A stretch of DNA of 51,575 nucleotides from Ruminococcus sp. (lineage in GTDB: Bacteria > Bacillota > Clostridia > Oscillospirales > Ruminococcaceae), in the NCBI GenBank assembly GCA_017620025.1, contig JAFZRF010000021.1:1-51575 (forward strand). Reading direction: 5' to 3'. Positions 15,008 to 22,400 of the stretch are shown piece after piece (within the stretch, counting starts at the first letter, position 1; each line of letters starts with the position of its first letter). The notes below the pieces were generated by a model. The model made no database searches, had not been told where the DNA came from, and was given only the letters and a program-made list of their open reading frames with translations. Made by a program: the position numbers and the translations under genes.

Positions 15008-15036
15008 TTTACAAATCAGGATAAATATGCTATAAT
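15008..15036 (+). promoter_or_regulatory. Promoter of the sigma/anti-sigma/dockerin operon
   Basis: TTTACA (15008-15013), 17 bases, TATAAT (15031-15036): a housekeeping-type promoter about 100 bases before the sigma-factor start. I find no convincing ECF-type -35/-10 pair in the leader, so autoregulation by the sigma factor is not visible. Confidence 0.75.
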
Positions 15037-15140
15037 TTAAGGTGATTATAAGTCTGACATCGTGTTCACAAAATGTTTACAATTCAACCCGCACATAACG
15101 GGCACACCGATCGTTAAACTGTATGAAGGGAGGAATACTA

Positions 15141-15617
15141 TTGTCAATTGACTTAAAAGAACAGTACGATAAGATATATCGTTACTGCTGGATACGTGTA
15201 CATAACCGTGAAATAGCCGAAGATATAACCCAGGAAACCTTCCTTCGATACCTGGAAAAGCCGGAATATCACGATGTATCAAAGAAGCTGCAGCTTCTGT
15301 ACACTATCGCAGGCAATCTTTGCAAGGATCACTACAAAAAGCCTTCCGAATCGGATATTTCCGATTATTCTGACATACTTGAAGCCCCCGGATCCGGAGA
15401 GCTCGAGAGAAATACTCTGACAAGCCTCGCTTTAAGGCAGGCGCTTGCCTCTCTTTCACAGGATGAGAGAGAAATGGTGCTTTTAAGGTATGTCAACGAA
15501 GTTCCGGTCAATGTCATAAGTGAAATGTATGGTATTTCAAGATTTTCGGTCAACCGCCGGCTGAAAGGCCTTCTTGACCGGCTTAAAGACGCACTCGTAG
15601 AGGAGGGAGAAAGTTGA
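15141..15617 (+). CDS. ECF-like sigma-70 family RNA polymerase sigma factor
   Basis: Directs RNA polymerase to a small set of promoters, probably when released by the membrane protein encoded next. The 158-residue protein has region 2 (YCWIRVHNREIAEDITQETF, core-binding and -10 recognition) and region 4 (EVPVNVISEMYGISRFSVNRRLKGL, a helix-turn-helix) joined by a short linker, as in ECF sigma factors. I start it at TTG 15141 because GGGAGG ends 7 bases upstream. An in-frame ATG at 15123 precedes that site and has none of its own. The stop overlaps the TTG start of the anti-sigma candidate, a strong sign of coupled synthesis. It is not SigI: no SigI-type region or RsgI N-terminal domain is seen. 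Confidence 0.9.
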   Translation: MSIDLKEQYDKIYRYCWIRVHNREIAEDITQETFLRYLEKPEYHDVSKKLQLLYTIAGNLCKDHYKKPSESDISDYSDILEAPGSGELERNTLTSLALRQALASLSQDEREMVLLRYVNEVPVNVISEMYGISRFSVNRRLKGLLDRLKDALVEEGES

Positions 15618-17500
15618 AGAACGATATTCGTGATAGATTAACAGAAGCATTCGGTATTCCGGATCCGGTCAGAAAGGATGAATTCTTCAGCAAGCTTGAG
15701 GAAGCTCAGGAAGAGCGTGAAAAAGACGATAAGGCCATGGCTCTCCTGTTTACCTTCGGCGACTCCGGAAAAACCGAGAAAAAGCAGTCAAAGCTCCCCA
15801 TTATCCTGAAGATAGGCTCAATTGCAGCAGCTGCCGCAGCAGCCTTCTCTATATGGGTAGCCGGAAAAGCAACTCCTGACCTTGTGCAGGATCATCATAA
15901 TCATCCTGATTATATTACAGAGACCGAATTTTCTACAGAAACACATACCACTGCAGCCCCTGATGAGCAGCAGCCTACAGACGACGAGGAACCTACAGCT
16001 ACCACAGCAGCTACAGAACCCGCAACAAAGAAGGGACGCACAACAGAGCCTGCCATCACAACAGCCGGTGCTCAGACAGAAACAGCCGGTACAGGCACAC
16101 AGACTCAGGCAACGCAGAGCCCCGGATTTCAGGGAACAGCAGCTTCGCCTGCACCTACCTCACCTTCATCCCCTGAGACAGGACGCACTCCCGAGTCAAC
16201 ACGTGCTCACGATACAGGCCGCTCTCATGAGACAGCTACAACAGCCGTATCAACAAGGGCTCACGGCAGTTCAGCGACAACAGCAGCTGTTACATCGTCC
16301 AGAACAGTTCGTGTAACTACAACGGCATCTGCAACTTCGTCAAAGTCTGCTCGTATTACCACTACGGCCAGCGCTGTAAGCACCGGACCGGCAGCAACGA
16401 CAATAAGGACAAAGTCCACAGAAAAGGTCAAGGTGACGAGTGTACCAAAGGCCACTACGGCGGAAGCACCTCCGGAAACACAGACCGAACCGGTTAGAAC
16501 GAAGCCTGCCGACAATATACCTACGCCTACAGAGGGACGCGAAGATCCAAGCACAGATCCGATTGTAGCTCCGATTGAAGAGCCGGGTACAGATCAAATC
16601 GAATTTTCGACAGAGGCAGCGACATATGTTCCGGCTGAAACCACTCCGCCTGCAACTTATGTATATCCCCCGCCGGCTATGACTCAGCCTGCAACAAGGG
16701 ACAACGGAAGCAATTCGGTTGAAGCAACAGAACCTGTATACACCTGGCCGTCCGGTTACGACACGCCAAACTGCACAATGGTGCCGACACAACCGGCTCG
16801 TGAAGACGTAACACCTACCACTCCGACAGATACGTATAAAAAATCGATACATAACGGAGATTATTACATTGATCCCGTTAATGCATTGAATACTCCGTCA
16901 TACTGCATTCCGCTTTCTGAATTATATAACGAAGAGCGGACGAGTGATAACGAATACGGATATGACAAATTTACTTACTTGAGATATATCCGCTATGAAC
17001 AGGCATTTGTAGGATACGTCGATGAAGTATTCTGTACAGTAAACTCTAACGGAACTAATCTGATAGTTCAGAATGTCACCGTTCTGGATGCTCTGTACGG
17101 AGATGTTGAGCCTGATGATGTCTGCTCAGTCGTCACTTTCGGAGGATATAAAAAGGCTGATAAGCTTTCTGATTATCAGATAGAGAAAATAAAGGACAAC
17201 TCTCCTGATTCAGAAATTAGTCAGTACTTCATTGAAACTGATGATGGCCATTATATCTATGACGGACCTTCTTACGTATACGTTTATGACGATACAGCTC
17301 TCTCAAGAGAACCCAGACCCGGAGATATATGCTTATTCCTGACATACACCTTACAAGACAAACTGCTGCCGGCAAGAAACAGCTCTCAGGGCATCTTCCT
17401 GCTGCATTCAGACTACTTCCAGAATGACAGATACACTGATTATAAGTACACAATGGAAGAGATCATCGCATTCTTCCAGAAGAAAAAAGAGGATGGTTAA
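15614..17500 (+). CDS. Candidate anti-sigma factor: single-pass membrane protein with Thr/Pro linker and extracellular domain
   Basis: Probable transmembrane partner of the sigma factor. The 628-residue protein has a short charged cytoplasmic part (1-60), one membrane segment (about 62-83), a Thr/Ala/Pro/Glu-rich linker of about 320 residues, and a C-terminal domain (409-628) beginning KKSIHNGDYY. That domain is clearly homologous to the C terminus of the secreted dockerin protein encoded next (shared stretches GDYYI, LYGDVE, DDVCSV, IYDGPS, PGDICLFLT, LHSDYF, FFQKK). No zinc-binding anti-sigma motif is seen in the short N terminus, so the anti-sigma role rests on gene order, topology and the TTGA overlap. 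The start is TTG with GGAGGGAG just upstream. Confidence 0.75.
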   Translation: MKNDIRDRLTEAFGIPDPVRKDEFFSKLEEAQEEREKDDKAMALLFTFGDSGKTEKKQSKLPIILKIGSIAAAAAAAFSIWVAGKATPDLVQDHHNHPDYITETEFSTETHTTAAPDEQQPTDDEEPTATTAATEPATKKGRTTEPAITTAGAQTETAGTGTQTQATQSPGFQGTAASPAPTSPSSPETGRTPESTRAHDTGRSHETATTAVSTRAHGSSATTAAVTSSRTVRVTTTASATSSKSARITTTASAVSTGPAATTIRTKSTEKVKVTSVPKATTAEAPPETQTEPVRTKPADNIPTPTEGREDPSTDPIVAPIEEPGTDQIEFSTEAATYVPAETTPPATYVYPPPAMTQPATRDNGSNSVEATEPVYTWPSGYDTPNCTMVPTQPAREDVTPTTPTDTYKKSIHNGDYYIDPVNALNTPSYCIPLSELYNEERTSDNEYGYDKFTYLRYIRYEQAFVGYVDEVFCTVNSNGTNLIVQNVTVLDALYGDVEPDDVCSVVTFGGYKKADKLSDYQIEKIKDNSPDSEISQYFIETDDGHYIYDGPSYVYVYDDTALSREPRPGDICLFLTYTLQDKLLPARNSSQGIFLLHSDYFQNDRYTDYKYTMEEIIAFFQKKKEDG

Positions 17501-17526
17501 ACCGCCATCAAGGGGAGGAATCAATC

Positions 17527-19761
17527 ATGAAAAAAACTGCTTCACTAATCATCTCAGCCGTTCTTGCAGCGACAGCAGCAGCACCTGCTGTCTCTGCATC
17601 GGCAGCAAGCATCACTGTACCGGAGGTAACCGCCGTTACCGGTGATATCAACTCCGACGGCAGCATTGCAGTATCGGACGCTGTTCTGATCATGGAGTAT
17701 CTGCTCGGCAAGGAAGAGTTTACCGAGACACAGTACAAGGCAGCTGACCTCAACACGGACGGAAATGTTGATACCTTTGACTTCGTCGTTATGCGTGAGA
17801 AGATCATCGCAGAGATAAAGTCTGATATCAAGGAGAACGGTATATCCTACAGGTACGACGGTACTGCAATGGTAAAGTACCTCGGCTGCAAAAAGCTTCT
17901 GAACGGTATCGATGCTGTGATCACCTCAACAGATGAGCTTAAAGCAACCTTTGACGGTGTGTTCCGTCCGTTCGTCGTAACTGCGCTTTGCGATATCTAT
18001 GACGAGAATTACTTCAAGGATAATGTGCTCTTCATTGATGCAGAGCTCTGGGATGACAGATACGCAGTTCCCGACGGAACTGATATCAGCGAAGAAAACG
18101 GCGTTATAACGATAACCAAGCACAGAAAGAGCCTTGATGATTCCGATGATACGGACTGCACAAAGAAACAGGCTATCCTGCATCAGGTGAGCTATCCTAA
18201 GGAGAATTACACAGGACAGAACGTCGTATGGCGTGAGGAAGATGCCATAAACCTCAGTTATACACGCAAAACAGCTGATCAATGCGATATTAGCGACGGC
18301 TTCGTAACATCCTTTGATGAATTAAAGAATTACATTAAAGAATACAACTGGTCGACGGATTTTACTGACGAGGAATTAACACAGGAAGCACTCGATACTC
18401 TCAACCAGTTCTATGGAAGCAGAGTATATGACCCGGATCTTGATAAAATGGTCGTTCCTGCTTACTTCACCGAAGAATCAGCAACTGTGTTCTTTGAGAG
18501 CCACGCTGTATTATTCAGAAGTGCCGGATATCTGACCCACGATCAGTTTGTTAATGCTTCCAAAGCTGTACTCAGAGGAAACACGCTCTGTCTTGATTAT
18601 CTTATTGATCCAGACATTTTCGGTGATGTAGTTGTGCAGGGCGGCGAGATGTATATATTCGATAAAATGGAGCTTAAGGGAGCTGATCTGAATAATATCG
18701 AGTTTGAGATGACGCAGTGCAATCCCGAGAAAGAGGAAATGATCCTTAAAGACGGCCCCGGCAAAGGCGGCTACAATGACAACACAGTATATGTCTTTAA
18801 GTCGGATTTCGCCGGAAGAAGCTTTATCTCTATCGATGCAGATTATGTACAGTTCATGTCACCTTGCTACAATTACAAGTATATCGACGATATTGAAATA
18901 GATCATGATATTGCTGACAGTTTCACTAACGCTGATATCAAAGTGAAAAAATATGTAGTCTCATTTGATGATTTTGAAATATCTTTTCCGATCAATAAGA
19001 ACGGAGATATCTACACCCATATTTATCCGTTGCCCACTTTCAGTTCAGGATCAGATAATGACACGTCAACCAAAACAGAAACGACTCCTGCTCCGGAAGA
19101 TACAGAAGATACAAATAAAAAATCCATACATAACGGAGATTACTACATTTCTCCCGATTCTGCAATAGATACTCCGTCAGATTCTTTTAGTCTTTCAGAG
19201 CTTTGCGGTTATGAATGTGATTATGATCCCGACAGATTTAATCCTTTAAAGCTTAGTTTATACGATCGGGCATTTATCGGATCAGTAGATGATGTTTTCT
19301 ACACAGTTCTCGATGATGGAACACATTTATTAGTTCAGAACGTAACTGTCATCGACCCTTTATATGGTGATGTTGAAAAGGATGACGTATGTTCGGTCGG
19401 CATGTACGGAGGATATATAAAGCCTGATCAGCTTGAAAATAATCAGATAAGAAGTATGCTTGTAATATCACCTGAGGCAGAGATCTGTCAATATTTTTCA
19501 GAAAACAGTGAGCATAAATACATCTATGACGGACCTTCTGATATATACATCTATGATGATACAGATATCAAAAGAGAACCGAAGCCGGGAGATATATGCC
19601 TATTCTTAACACATGATGTCACAGACACTCCGTGTCTGACGACATGGGGTTCATGGTATATCTTCCATTTAGATTCAGATTACTTCCGGAACGATGAATT
19701 CAATGACTATAAGCTCACCATGGAAGAAATCACTGAGTTTTTCCAAAAGAAGAGAAATTAA
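17527..19761 (+). CDS. Secreted protein with N-terminal dockerin-like domain and C-terminal domain shared with the anti-sigma candidate
   Basis: A 744-residue exported protein of unknown activity. A signal peptide (about 1-27) is followed directly by a dockerin-type pair of calcium loops (38-97: GDINSDGSIAVSD and DLNTDGNVDTFD), which in ruminococci dock proteins to cohesins of a cellulosome-like scaffold. Residues about 100-500 include a module that recurs in the next gene's product. Residues 531-744 match the extracellular domain of the upstream membrane protein, and even the DNA at the domain start (KKSIHNGDYY) is nearly identical, pointing to recent duplication or gene conversion. GGGGAGG precedes the ATG and the gap to the previous gene is 26 bases. 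I see no glycoside hydrolase or carbohydrate-binding motif. Confidence 0.8.
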   Translation: MKKTASLIISAVLAATAAAPAVSASAASITVPEVTAVTGDINSDGSIAVSDAVLIMEYLLGKEEFTETQYKAADLNTDGNVDTFDFVVMREKIIAEIKSDIKENGISYRYDGTAMVKYLGCKKLLNGIDAVITSTDELKATFDGVFRPFVVTALCDIYDENYFKDNVLFIDAELWDDRYAVPDGTDISEENGVITITKHRKSLDDSDDTDCTKKQAILHQVSYPKENYTGQNVVWREEDAINLSYTRKTADQCDISDGFVTSFDELKNYIKEYNWSTDFTDEELTQEALDTLNQFYGSRVYDPDLDKMVVPAYFTEESATVFFESHAVLFRSAGYLTHDQFVNASKAVLRGNTLCLDYLIDPDIFGDVVVQGGEMYIFDKMELKGADLNNIEFEMTQCNPEKEEMILKDGPGKGGYNDNTVYVFKSDFAGRSFISIDADYVQFMSPCYNYKYIDDIEIDHDIADSFTNADIKVKKYVVSFDDFEISFPINKNGDIYTHIYPLPTFSSGSDNDTSTKTETTPAPEDTEDTNKKSIHNGDYYISPDSAIDTPSDSFSLSELCGYECDYDPDRFNPLKLSLYDRAFIGSVDDVFYTVLDDGTHLLVQNVTVIDPLYGDVEKDDVCSVGMYGGYIKPDQLENNQIRSMLVISPEAEICQYFSENSEHKYIYDGPSDIYIYDDTDIKREPKPGDICLFLTHDVTDTPCLTTWGSWYIFHLDSDYFRNDEFNDYKLTMEEITEFFQKKRN

Positions 19762-19838
19762 ATTATATTCATCCAAAGGTATCACCAGAGTCAAAAATAA
19801 AAGTTTTATTCATTAAATCATAACAAGGAGGCGTAATT

Positions 19839-22217
19839 ATGAAAAAGCTAAACAAGCTATTCGCTGCTGCATCAGCTGCTGCCATGCTGCTGTGCGCAGT
19901 ACCTGTATTCACTTCGGCTGCCGATATTGACTATCCCAAAAACGCAAGGGATTTTGAGGAATTTCTGGCAAAGCATCCCGACGGATATATAATCAATGAT
20001 GACGGCAGTATCTACCTGTACCCTATCGACATAGAGCATTCAGTATTCTCAACTGGATATCTCGTCAGCTCGTCACTGTCCTATCAGACTGAGGATCTTG
20101 ATATCGGTATGACGATCCGTCCTGAAACTAAAGAAAAAGGAAGATACCTCGTATCGCTTTATTCCAGTTTCGAGAGCATAATCCAATTCAAAATACCGGA
20201 GAACAGCAGCGGCAATACTGAATGCCACTTCCACTGCTTCTATCCGTGTCTCGAATCCTATCTTATCGATACCACTGACGGTGTAAAGGTAGAGTATCTC
20301 GGTAATGCAAATATGTGTCCCGAAGAAGAAATAGAAGCCTACGTCAAGAAATGCGAGGAGGAGGCTGAAAAGGATCCCGAGAAATACAACGCCTGCTTTA
20401 CACACAATTTTATCTCGCTGGATGACCTGACGAACGGCATCTATATTTCATATGTCAACAGCAAGCTTTCCGATGACGGCTGCGCTTCTCCGTTCGTTAT
20501 GTCACAATACGAATATAACGCTTCACAGAAGCTCGTTATCGGTACTCCCTCAGCTGAGACAAAATTTGAGATCCGTCCCTCTGTTGATCCTCCTGTAATA
20601 TACGAAGGTAAGACCGGAGCATCAGATGACCTTATGACACGTACCGGAGAAGACAGATACTACCGCATCTATGATCTTCCTGAAAGGGATTCGCAGCGTC
20701 TGTTAAACATTACTATAGATCTGTCATACAATGCTTATGACTTCTGTCCTGCAGAGAACGGCTGGTCTGAATATGTCAGATTCTCACCTCCTCTCCCTTA
20801 TATGCCTACAGAAGCGCCTACAGAGGTAAGTGTTCCGGCTGTTCAGAACGACGTAAACGGTGACGGCAGCTTCAACGTAGCCGATCTCGTTTCACTGAAC
20901 AAGTATCTCCTTTCAGGCGGTACTAAGATAACAGCTGCCGCTGATATCAACGGTGACAGCTCCGTTGATTCCTTCGATCTGGTATTCCTCCGCAAAAAGC
21001 TGATAAAGACAGATGCCGAGGAAAAGAGATATTCCTATATCAAGGATGTCACAAAGTACGGCACAGATAAGGGCATCAAGTCAGCTATTATGGGCGAGAG
21101 CTACGTTATCACTGATTACAACGAGCTGACAACTACCCTTCGTTCACTGCTGCGTGAGGCTGTTTGCAGAGATCTTGAGAAGCGCTATGACCCGGGCTTC
21201 TTCAAGAACAACGTACTGCTTCTCCGTCTGACCAACAACTCAGGCGGTCTTGATCCTCAGATGGTTGAAAGCGTCGATTTCAATATCGCTGACGACCGTG
21301 AAGGCAACAACATCACTGTCAATATGAAGGCAGATCCGGCTGAGACAGCAAAAGAATACATCGAGATCCATCAGGTAAGCATCAGCAGGAACATGACCGG
21401 CATAAATAACGGCAATCCTGAGTTTATCTGGAAAGACGCAGACAGAAAGAACATAAACTGTGATGTATGTGAGATAATGTATTCCTATCCGAAGAACGAA
21501 CAGGAAGATAAGCTTATCACATCGTACGACGAATTCCTTTCCTACCTCAGCGAAGAAAACTTTGAACTGAACTATGACAAATCAAACTATAGATCATTCA
21601 TGGATTATTTTGCAGCTGATGTAAAAGACCGCTGCGGAATAGAATTCAATGAAGCACTGTTTGACACAAAATCTGTCTATGCTCACCTGACAAGCAACTT
21701 CAATGAAGATGATTTCTGCAGAGCTGAGATCAGCGGCGATAAGCTCACCATACACGAGAAGCATATACCCGATTACGGCGACATTGCTTATATGATGATC
21801 AAATTCTATGTATTCGATAAGAATGATATCTCAGGTGTTGATACCATTGAAATGAGAAGCCACAGGCTGCTTGATCAGAGGTATGATCCCGGTGAGAACA
21901 AATCAGGCAACTGGTACCTTGCTGTATGTCAGTATGATTTCAATGACGAGAGTTCTCTTGCACTGTACTCACGCTACAGTCTCGGCTTCGCTCCGGCAAG
22001 CGGATACAAGCTCGTGGATGAATTTGAATTAACTCCCGGATTCAAGCCCTTCGGCGAAGATATAGAAAACCTGCTCAGAAGCGAAAACGATATATCCGGA
22101 GAGAATTTCAGCATAAAGTACGGAGAGGAAAGTGCTGAGGTAAGATTCAGGACTTCCCCCGGCGGTGAATTCACCACCGTTGAAATACCCTATACTTACA
22201 ATCAGTATTTTATATGA
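19839..22217 (+). CDS. Secreted protein with central dockerin-like domain
   Basis: A 792-residue exported protein of unknown activity. It has a signal peptide (about 1-28), an N-terminal region of about 300 residues, a dockerin-like pair of calcium loops in the middle (336-395: DVNGDGSFNVAD and DINGDSSVDSFD), then a C-terminal region. After the dockerin it has a module related to the previous protein: YVITDYNELTTTLRSL with FFKNNVLLLR here, against VITSTDELKATFDGV with YFKDNVLFID there. Both then have a HQVS stretch and a SYDEFLSYL or SFDELKNYI stretch. It lacks the domain shared with the anti-sigma candidate. AAGGAGG precedes the start; the 77-base gap has no terminator that I can see, so it may be in the same operon. 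Confidence 0.78.
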   Translation: MKKLNKLFAAASAAAMLLCAVPVFTSAADIDYPKNARDFEEFLAKHPDGYIINDDGSIYLYPIDIEHSVFSTGYLVSSSLSYQTEDLDIGMTIRPETKEKGRYLVSLYSSFESIIQFKIPENSSGNTECHFHCFYPCLESYLIDTTDGVKVEYLGNANMCPEEEIEAYVKKCEEEAEKDPEKYNACFTHNFISLDDLTNGIYISYVNSKLSDDGCASPFVMSQYEYNASQKLVIGTPSAETKFEIRPSVDPPVIYEGKTGASDDLMTRTGEDRYYRIYDLPERDSQRLLNITIDLSYNAYDFCPAENGWSEYVRFSPPLPYMPTEAPTEVSVPAVQNDVNGDGSFNVADLVSLNKYLLSGGTKITAAADINGDSSVDSFDLVFLRKKLIKTDAEEKRYSYIKDVTKYGTDKGIKSAIMGESYVITDYNELTTTLRSLLREAVCRDLEKRYDPGFFKNNVLLLRLTNNSGGLDPQMVESVDFNIADDREGNNITVNMKADPAETAKEYIEIHQVSISRNMTGINNGNPEFIWKDADRKNINCDVCEIMYSYPKNEQEDKLITSYDEFLSYLSEENFELNYDKSNYRSFMDYFAADVKDRCGIEFNEALFDTKSVYAHLTSNFNEDDFCRAEISGDKLTIHEKHIPDYGDIAYMMIKFYVFDKNDISGVDTIEMRSHRLLDQRYDPGENKSGNWYLAVCQYDFNDESSLALYSRYSLGFAPASGYKLVDEFELTPGFKPFGEDIENLLRSENDISGENFSIKYGEESAEVRFRTSPGGEFTTVEIPYTYNQYFI

Positions 22218-22369: not shown

Positions 22370-22400
22370 CCGCACCTTGTCAAAAGGTGCGGATTTTTTG
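22370..22400 (+). terminator. Rho-independent terminator after the dockerin operon
   Basis: CCGCACCTT (22370-22378) pairs with AAGGTGCGG (22384-22392), followed by ATTTTTTG. Confidence 0.9.

Follow-up and report, generated by a model that had tools for sequence, protein, structure and literature searches.

The DNA analysed here, called the window, is a stretch of 51,575 nucleotides from Ruminococcus sp. (assembly GCA_017620025.1, contig JAFZRF010000021.1), which is contig C23 of a draft genome of 2.7 Mb in 70 contigs that is 75.9% complete. Four genes on the + strand at 15141-22217 encode a sigma factor, a membrane protein that is the anti-sigma candidate, and two secreted dockerin proteins. 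The locus is probably one copy of a switch consisting of an extracytoplasmic function (ECF) sigma factor and a membrane anti-sigma factor, which is found widely in Ruminococcus and is tied to the cellulosome. With 146 Dockerin_1 matches in its genome, the organism very probably produces cellulosomes. What the sequence itself shows is the order of the genes, the family of ectodomains, the conserved motif with dockerin genes behind it, and the ectodomain copy on a neighbouring protein. The features of the locus are as follows (aa, amino acids):

15076..15116, + strand: predicted autoregulatory ECF promoter, TTTACAATT..CCGCACAT-15/16-CGTTA, conserved before homologous operons
15141..15617, + strand: ECF sigma factor, 158 aa, TTG start (Pfam/NCBIfam matches; genus homologues)
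15614..17500, + strand: anti-sigma candidate, 628 aa, TTG start (position, one hydrophobic segment, cytosolic motif common to homologues)
15794..15865, + strand: transmembrane segment, residues 61-84, the sole hydrophobic segment (hydropathy)
15866..16837, + strand: Thr/Ser/Pro-rich extracellular stalk (23.6% T, 11.9% P and 8.2% S in residues 91-408)
16838..17497, + strand: ectodomain, residues 409-628 (alignment and profile searches)
17527..19761, + strand: secreted dockerin protein 1, 744 aa, dockerin at residues 39-92 (Pfam; signal peptide by inspection)
19117..19758, + strand: lineage-specific copy of the anti-sigma ectodomain, residues 531-744 of dockerin protein 1 (alignment, synteny, tree)
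19839..22217, + strand: secreted dockerin protein 2, 792 aa, dockerin at residues 337-388 (Pfam; signal peptide by inspection)
22370..22392, + strand: terminator-like stem with a T run (pattern match only)

The sigma factor matched Sigma70_r2 (E 8e-8) and Sigma70_r4 (E 2e-8) in Pfam and TIGR02937 sigma70-ECF (E 5e-20) in NCBIfam; it has regions 2 and 4 only, and its length lies within the range of about 150-190 aa used to define ECF factors. Its TTG start at 15141 is preceded by AGGGAGG and looks like the right one, since the other in-frame start, an ATG at 15123, is only 6 bases past the predicted -10 element (15112-15116). The overlap of 4 bases between the sigma and membrane protein genes (TTGA, 15614-15617), reported in an earlier note on this DNA, was confirmed. 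The four genes likely form one operon, as predicted from the short gaps (26 bases from the membrane protein gene to dockerin gene 1, and 77 bases from dockerin gene 1 to 2) and the terminator-like stem. A Pfam scan of the membrane protein gave no match above noise, and no RsgI match was found in it up to E 1 (Pfam, NCBIfam). The motif ALKxAFxIPEPxxKxxF in its cytosolic segment is common to homologues. With sigma region 4 present and no RsgI match, the earlier description of the locus held, namely an ECF-type sigma factor with a membrane anti-sigma candidate, linked to dockerins and distinct from SigI/RsgI.

Homologues of the sigma factor were found in 74 of 125 genus genomes (E<=1e-20), and relatives with 48-51% identity were also present in Lachnospiraceae and Epulopiscium records. 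The loci examined numbered 106, comprising the window and 105 that were fetched. In all except L144 an open reading frame (ORF) directly follows the sigma gene, and these 105 proteins consist of 75 with the ectodomain, 26 of a fused type, three polytopic proteins (L064, L065 and L137) and one cut by a contig end (L072). The sigma and anti-sigma genes overlap by 4 bases in 59 of the 76 non-fused, non-polytopic loci.

A search with the window ectodomain alone found no relative, and the family was seen only via the neighbouring sigma gene. Both window proteins were recovered (E 8e-11 and 2e-6; 36.1 and 21.6 bits) by a profile built from relatives without the window rows, whereas none of 1000 shuffled domain sequences scored above 13.0 bits. 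Across the sigma loci 76 called ORFs carry the ectodomain, which are the 75 anti-sigma factors and dockerin protein 1 of the window. The genus-wide profile gave more distant matches, for which 19 further regions were fetched, one being a repeat. Among 15 of these loci (L146-L160) the match lies directly behind another sigma-size ORF in 14, the remaining one (L153) having only a short frame before it, and all eight sigma-size ORFs scanned gave Sigma70 matches, although those for L154 were weak and did not reach the cut-off; L162 and L163 run off the ends of their contigs. When 394 genomes of the order were sampled, only two genomes outside the genus gave a match. From this distribution the ectodomain, as judged from sequence, serves chiefly as an anti-sigma sensor domain in this genus and is used by more than one ECF family. 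Weak Agrin NtA matches were obtained for 4 of the 76 ectodomains (best E 1.8e-4; that of L106 below cut-off), with none for the window's anti-sigma copy, and the ectodomain sequence profile gave no match in the PDB up to E 10. NtA has an NTR/TIMP-like OB fold. Two single cases were also noted. On contig C32 of the window's own genome (L146:3601-6675), an ECF sigma factor of another family stands with an 829-aa partner carrying a distant ectodomain copy, and genome G030, in which this sigma factor was not matched, encodes a lone 249-aa lipoprotein with the ectodomain (L161:4436-5185).

A conserved promoter motif would link the sigma factor to dockerin genes. Upstream of 101 sigma genes, the words GTTTACAA (46) and CCGCACAT (29) were over-represented relative to shuffles, and the first composite pattern, TTTACA-N8-GCACA-N15/16-CGTYA, was found before 44 of 102 sigma genes. 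In the window the ECF promoter pattern matched once, with no match in 100 shuffles. A slightly looser pattern gave 73 matches in the 1,167,631 bases of the loci and one in shuffled sequence. These 73 matches comprise 44 before sigma genes, two labelled before anti-sigma genes through ORF calling (L047 and L119), 23 before dockerin genes (22 located 5' of sigma on the same strand and one on the opposite strand, in L101), and four before short frames preceding the gene 5' of sigma. Genus-wide, 65 of the 74 genomes that encode the sigma factor have the strict motif, against 1 of the 51 that do not (Fisher p 2e-24); read backwards, the motif gave one match. Sequence kinship makes these and all other counts less independent than the p-values suggest. 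A TTCACA element also recurs about 11 bases before the TTTACAATT element in many loci (window 15064-15116), for which an UP element or a regulator site are candidate roles.

Outside the sigma loci, 40 motif sites were fetched, about a dozen further sites being left out, and 32 of the 40 open onto dockerin proteins according to a dockerin profile built for this analysis, which flagged 32 of the 39 products found. After removal of two unlikely short frames and one site without an ORF, Pfam matches among the 37 remaining products were Dockerin (31), Serpin (15), LRR_5 (9), LRR_8 (5), Inhibitor_I42 (2), VanY (2), SH3_3 (2), Peptidase_S11 (1) and EF-hand_1 (1), and no glycoside hydrolase (GH) family was among them. 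Within the loci, a dockerin gene by the same profile lies immediately next door, on either side and on the same strand, in 49 of the 75 non-fused loci and in 6 of the 26 fused ones, compared with dockerins in 17 of 270 more distant ORFs. The 65 next-door dockerin genes of the non-fused loci matched Dockerin_1 (60), Serpin (29) and Transglut_core (19). Pfam therefore agreed with the profile for 60/65 next-door genes, 31/37 remote products and 24/26 fused proteins.

Several observations weigh against a switch wired to the cellulosome in this way. The strict motif is missing from 9 of the 74 sigma-bearing genomes, and 8 of the 40 remote sites have no dockerin, three of their products being D-Ala-D-Ala carboxypeptidase-like. 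The only strict sites in the window's own genome (75.9% complete, as above) are the promoters of its two sigma copies, and a relaxed pattern gave five sites there against two for the reversed control, of which only the two sigma promoters look real; a predicted remote regulon thus has no motif support in this genome. Conservation of the motif is in part a reflection of the common descent of orthologous operons and targets. No Pfam anti-sigma domain matches the cytosolic segment of the membrane protein, and Pfam found no Serpin domain in the two window dockerin proteins. The idea that these two proteins are hidden serpins or chagasin-like inhibitors was tried on three segments and was unsupported by Pfam.

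In the proposed mechanism, the membrane protein would hold the sigma factor through the short cytosolic segment that carries the common motif. A signal at the ectodomain or the long stalk, either a ligand or cleavage by an external protease, would lead to stepwise proteolysis of the anti-sigma factor and free the sigma factor. The T/S/P-rich stalk and the bitopic form are compatible with regulated proteolysis. The freed sigma factor would then act at GCACAT-N15/16-CGTYA promoters, switching on its own operon and, in relatives, also scattered dockerin genes, many of them encoding docked serpins.

The system is best read as the equivalent in Ruminococcus of two clostridial switches, SigI/RsgI and sigma24C/Rsi24C, sigma24C being ECF-like, and not as a member of SigI/RsgI. 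Like SigI/RsgI of C. thermocellum and Acetivibrio-type cellulosome producers, it has a sigma gene followed by that of a bitopic, putative anti-sigma factor with an extracellular part, a link to the cellulosome, and autoregulation, which is predicted here. In the available parts of PMC4711584 and PMC6056542, SigI is without region 4 and the RsgI ectodomains are CBM3, PA14, GH10 and others, whereas the window sigma factor has regions 2 and 4, and its membrane partner has no RsgI match and an ectodomain without a Pfam match above noise. RsgI receptors are used only by Acetivibrio-type cellulosome producers, according to an excerpt of PMC11557425. The large extracellular anti-sigma domain in a cellulosome producer is shared with sigma24C-Rsi24C of C. 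thermocellum, but the GH5-like module of Rsi24C binds cellulose (portions of PMC3990059 and PMC3526467), and GH5 was unmatched in the window protein and the 76 ectodomains. In sigmaV-RsiV of Bacillus subtilis, the anti-sigma factor of an ECF sigma factor is the receptor for an extracellular protein, and signal peptidase is its site-1 protease (PMC4183432, in part). A receptor role is also proposed for the window sensor; RsiV itself senses lysozyme.

Regulation of cellulosomal components by rumen ruminococci is described as yet to be understood in the accessible part of PMC4081043. No Ruminococcus ECF system for cellulosomes was found in a literature search that was thin on subscription journals. 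An ECF or anti-sigma factor tied to Ruminococcus cellulosomes was not described in the available sections of PMC4711584, PMC6056542, PMC11557425, PMC3573020, PMC12484212, PMC5814915, PMC2930009, PMC2721979, PMC5301203, PMC4081043, PMC3990059, PMC3526467, PMC4183432 and PMC8844934, and PMC6118326 gave no match. The present system offers a candidate for such regulation, with a sigma factor, a putative anti-sigma factor, a promoter motif and candidate target genes.

Docked serpins like those behind the conserved promoter include PinA of C. thermocellum and Doc-SERPIN ORF01368/01369 of R. flavefaciens FD-1. Cellulosomal serpins have been suggested to protect the cellulosome (PMC2930009, PMC5301203 and PMC12484212, partial texts), with proteolysis as the threat in PMC5301203; no regulator is named for them in these texts, and the word 'sigma' is absent from those of PMC2930009 and PMC5301203. 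The predicted output comprises docked serpins, two products with chagasin-like inhibitor matches and docked proteins of unknown function, which is more in keeping with guarding or maintaining the cellulosome than with a choice between polysaccharides. The signal to be expected would then be less a sugar than an attack on the cellulosome or its state of loading. A threat to the cellulosome itself, for example proteolysis, is tentatively put forward as a more plausible signal than a sugar. Polysaccharide sensing, which the earlier note had brought up by analogy, was not supported and is rather unlikely. It has precedents in the CBM3, PA14, GH10 or GH5 ectodomains of C. thermocellum (parts of PMC4711584, PMC3990059 and PMC3526467), and would make the ectodomain an undescribed carbohydrate-binding module (CBM) whose dockerin-borne copy directs the cellulosome to the same polysaccharide. 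Against this, no CBM, GH or PA14 match was found by Pfam in the window proteins or the 76 ectodomains, and the predicted regulon consists of dockerin proteins rich in serpins, LRR and unknown proteins, with the absence of GH from the remote products noted above.

In the fused type (26 of 105 loci), the anti-sigma frame stays open beyond the stalk and extends into a dockerin protein. The sigma factors of this type form one clade (SH-aLRT 97). The junction has a start codon in 25 of the 26 loci, L129 having GTC. After it come a few basic residues, then a hydrophobic stretch and, in 25/26, a loose [AVSG]-x-A site. This internal signal-peptide-like stretch was judged by eye, in all 26 rows, and with a loose hydropathy filter; it is weaker than the membrane segment in 17 loci, and only nine pass the hydropathy threshold for membrane segments. 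A ribosome-binding match before the internal start has at least 6 bases in 14 loci, at least 5 in 16, 4 bases in three, and is absent by the criterion used in six (L046, L058, L110, L113, L115 and L135), which retain the stretch and an ATG. Among 531 other in-frame starts of the same ORFs, 3 had at least 6 bases and 30 at least 5 (Fisher 2e-18 and 9e-13, respectively); this control is unmatched for amino-acid context, for which the codon test compensates in part. Where the ERS motif occurs, 14 of 15 Arg codons are AGG (19% elsewhere) and all 15 Ser codons are AGT or AGC (39% elsewhere), and L041 and L061 retain the ribosome-binding site with other amino acids. The stalk between the membrane segment and the internal start has dN/dS of 0.35-0.74 (11 relative pairs, some sharing a member), indicating that the fused stalk is probably translated and that selection seems to act on the long product as well as on the short one.

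One fused gene may therefore make both a membrane sensor and a secreted dockerin protein. If the internal start is used, an unusually compact arrangement would result, with a receptor and its soluble counterpart encoded by one gene. As a possible reading that is more doubtful than not, the membrane form, displaying its dockerin, would act as a sensor of cohesin occupancy or cellulosome integrity. It would sense free cohesins or the loss of docked partners on its own cellulosome, the free dockerin form would compete with it for the same cohesin sites, and release of the ECF sigma factor would lead to the production of docked serpins and other dockerin proteins. The full-length product would need to carry the internal hydrophobic stretch across the membrane. 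Rather unlikely is the alternative in which the stretch is a signal-peptidase site within the full-length protein, so that cleavage sheds the dockerin part and arms the anti-sigma factor. RsiV and RsiP are precedents for signal peptidase at site 1 (PMC4183432 and PMC8844934, in part), and the stretch is seen by eye in every row, including the six loci without a ribosome-binding match and L129 without a start codon. The properly spaced ribosome-binding matches of at least 6 bases, their excess over other starts, the AGG bias, and the retention of the site in L041 and L061 argue for an internal start instead.

Four loci of the fused type or related to it were also recorded. In L060:9618-12289 and L102:663-3334, a second sigma/anti-sigma-like pair lies directly upstream, and its membrane protein likewise runs into dockerin repeats, with an internal GAAAGGAGT start site; Sigma70 matches were confirmed for the pair of L060. 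On contig C43 of the window's own genome, L054:7093-9618 is a second copy of the same sigma system, of the fused type, with a GTG internal start and a weaker ribosome-binding site. On contig C10, L216:900-3828 has a different ECF sigma factor and a 795-aa protein related to the fused type, in which an internal MKK stretch is not preceded by a ribosome-binding site.

As part of the fused-sensor reading, the window would arrive at a comparable outcome through duplication of the sensor domain onto the neighbour protein. Dockerin proteins 1 and 2 have one Dockerin_1 match each (45.6 and 40.8 bits, cut-off 22.9) and are homologous outside the ectodomain (27% over 444 columns). The homology proposed between the C-terminal domain of the membrane protein and the end of dockerin protein 1 was confirmed, with 134 of 252 positions identical (53%, E 8e-74) between residues 374-625 and 501-743. 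The copying had been called recent from near-identical boundary DNA; the two domain copies do agree at 36 of their first 40 bases, but 'recent' is overstated because DNA identity over the 642 aligned bases is only 66%. In the window's own genome, a single-sequence search found the domain only in these two copies, and a profile search added one distant copy on C32 (E 1.9e-6).

The nearest relative, G133, has a syntenic locus (L068) in which six flanking proteins are 87-98% identical and the sigma factor 96%. Its anti-sigma factor is 79% identical to that of the window in the cytosolic part, 88% in the transmembrane part, 45% in the stalk and 34% in the ectodomain, and its dockerin proteins are 48% and 56% identical, the first one having 503 aa and no C-terminal ectodomain. 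In the tree, the two window ectodomains are sisters (100/93) with G133 next (100/100), the program warning of long branches, including that of G133. From the tree and the absence of the domain in the syntenic protein, the copying is placed after the split from G133, the nearest relative examined, unless G133 lost its copy. Ectodomain identity is the lowest for window/G133 among the 45 closest pairs listed, except three pairs with the truncated L072, and, set against the flanking proteins, suggests that the extracellular parts of the window locus evolve unusually fast or are replaced. The fused copies L054 and L092 diverge less (70% identity in the secreted part). Such a difference between ectodomain and flanks is also what a specificity module might show, which is a point in favour of polysaccharide sensing.

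In the mechanism proposed for the window, the copy on the co-encoded dockerin protein could allow the sensor's target to be bound on the cellulosome as well, where it would act as decoy feedback or in targeting. The shared domain is unlikely to be an accident of gene duplication without functional meaning. Only one of the 76 domain frames in sigma loci is a dockerin protein and the nearest relative lacks it, as an accident would predict, but neither copy has lost its open frame, the two are still 53% identical, and the family profile scores the dockerin copy above the anti-sigma copy (129.4 vs 102.7 bits), which suggests constraint. Still less probable is a homotypic or heterotypic interaction domain by which the dockerin protein binds the sensor and reports its incorporation into the cellulosome: the genes are co-encoded, the window copies form a sister pair and fused loci put a dockerin directly on the anti-sigma factor, but the other 74 ectodomain loci have the domain in no neighbouring ORF, so partner binding via the shared domain cannot be a general rule. 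Domain sharing between sensor and effector, suggested earlier for this locus, accordingly failed as a rule, the window dockerin protein being the only frame that is not an anti-sigma factor; the fused genes, with dockerin protein and anti-sigma factor in one frame, appear to be a deeper form of the same idea.

Two further features flank the operon. Upstream, a site close to the housekeeping consensus was located:

15008..15036, + strand: housekeeping-type promoter-like site, TTTACA-17-TATAAT, 11/12 (consensus match only)

Matches to this consensus in the region numbered 21, with 15.5 expected. Downstream (3') of the operon, a 359-aa membrane protein at 22497-23576 matches two separate 188-aa proteins of G133 with 53% and 35% identity, and looks like a tandem fusion, or the G133 genes like split ones.

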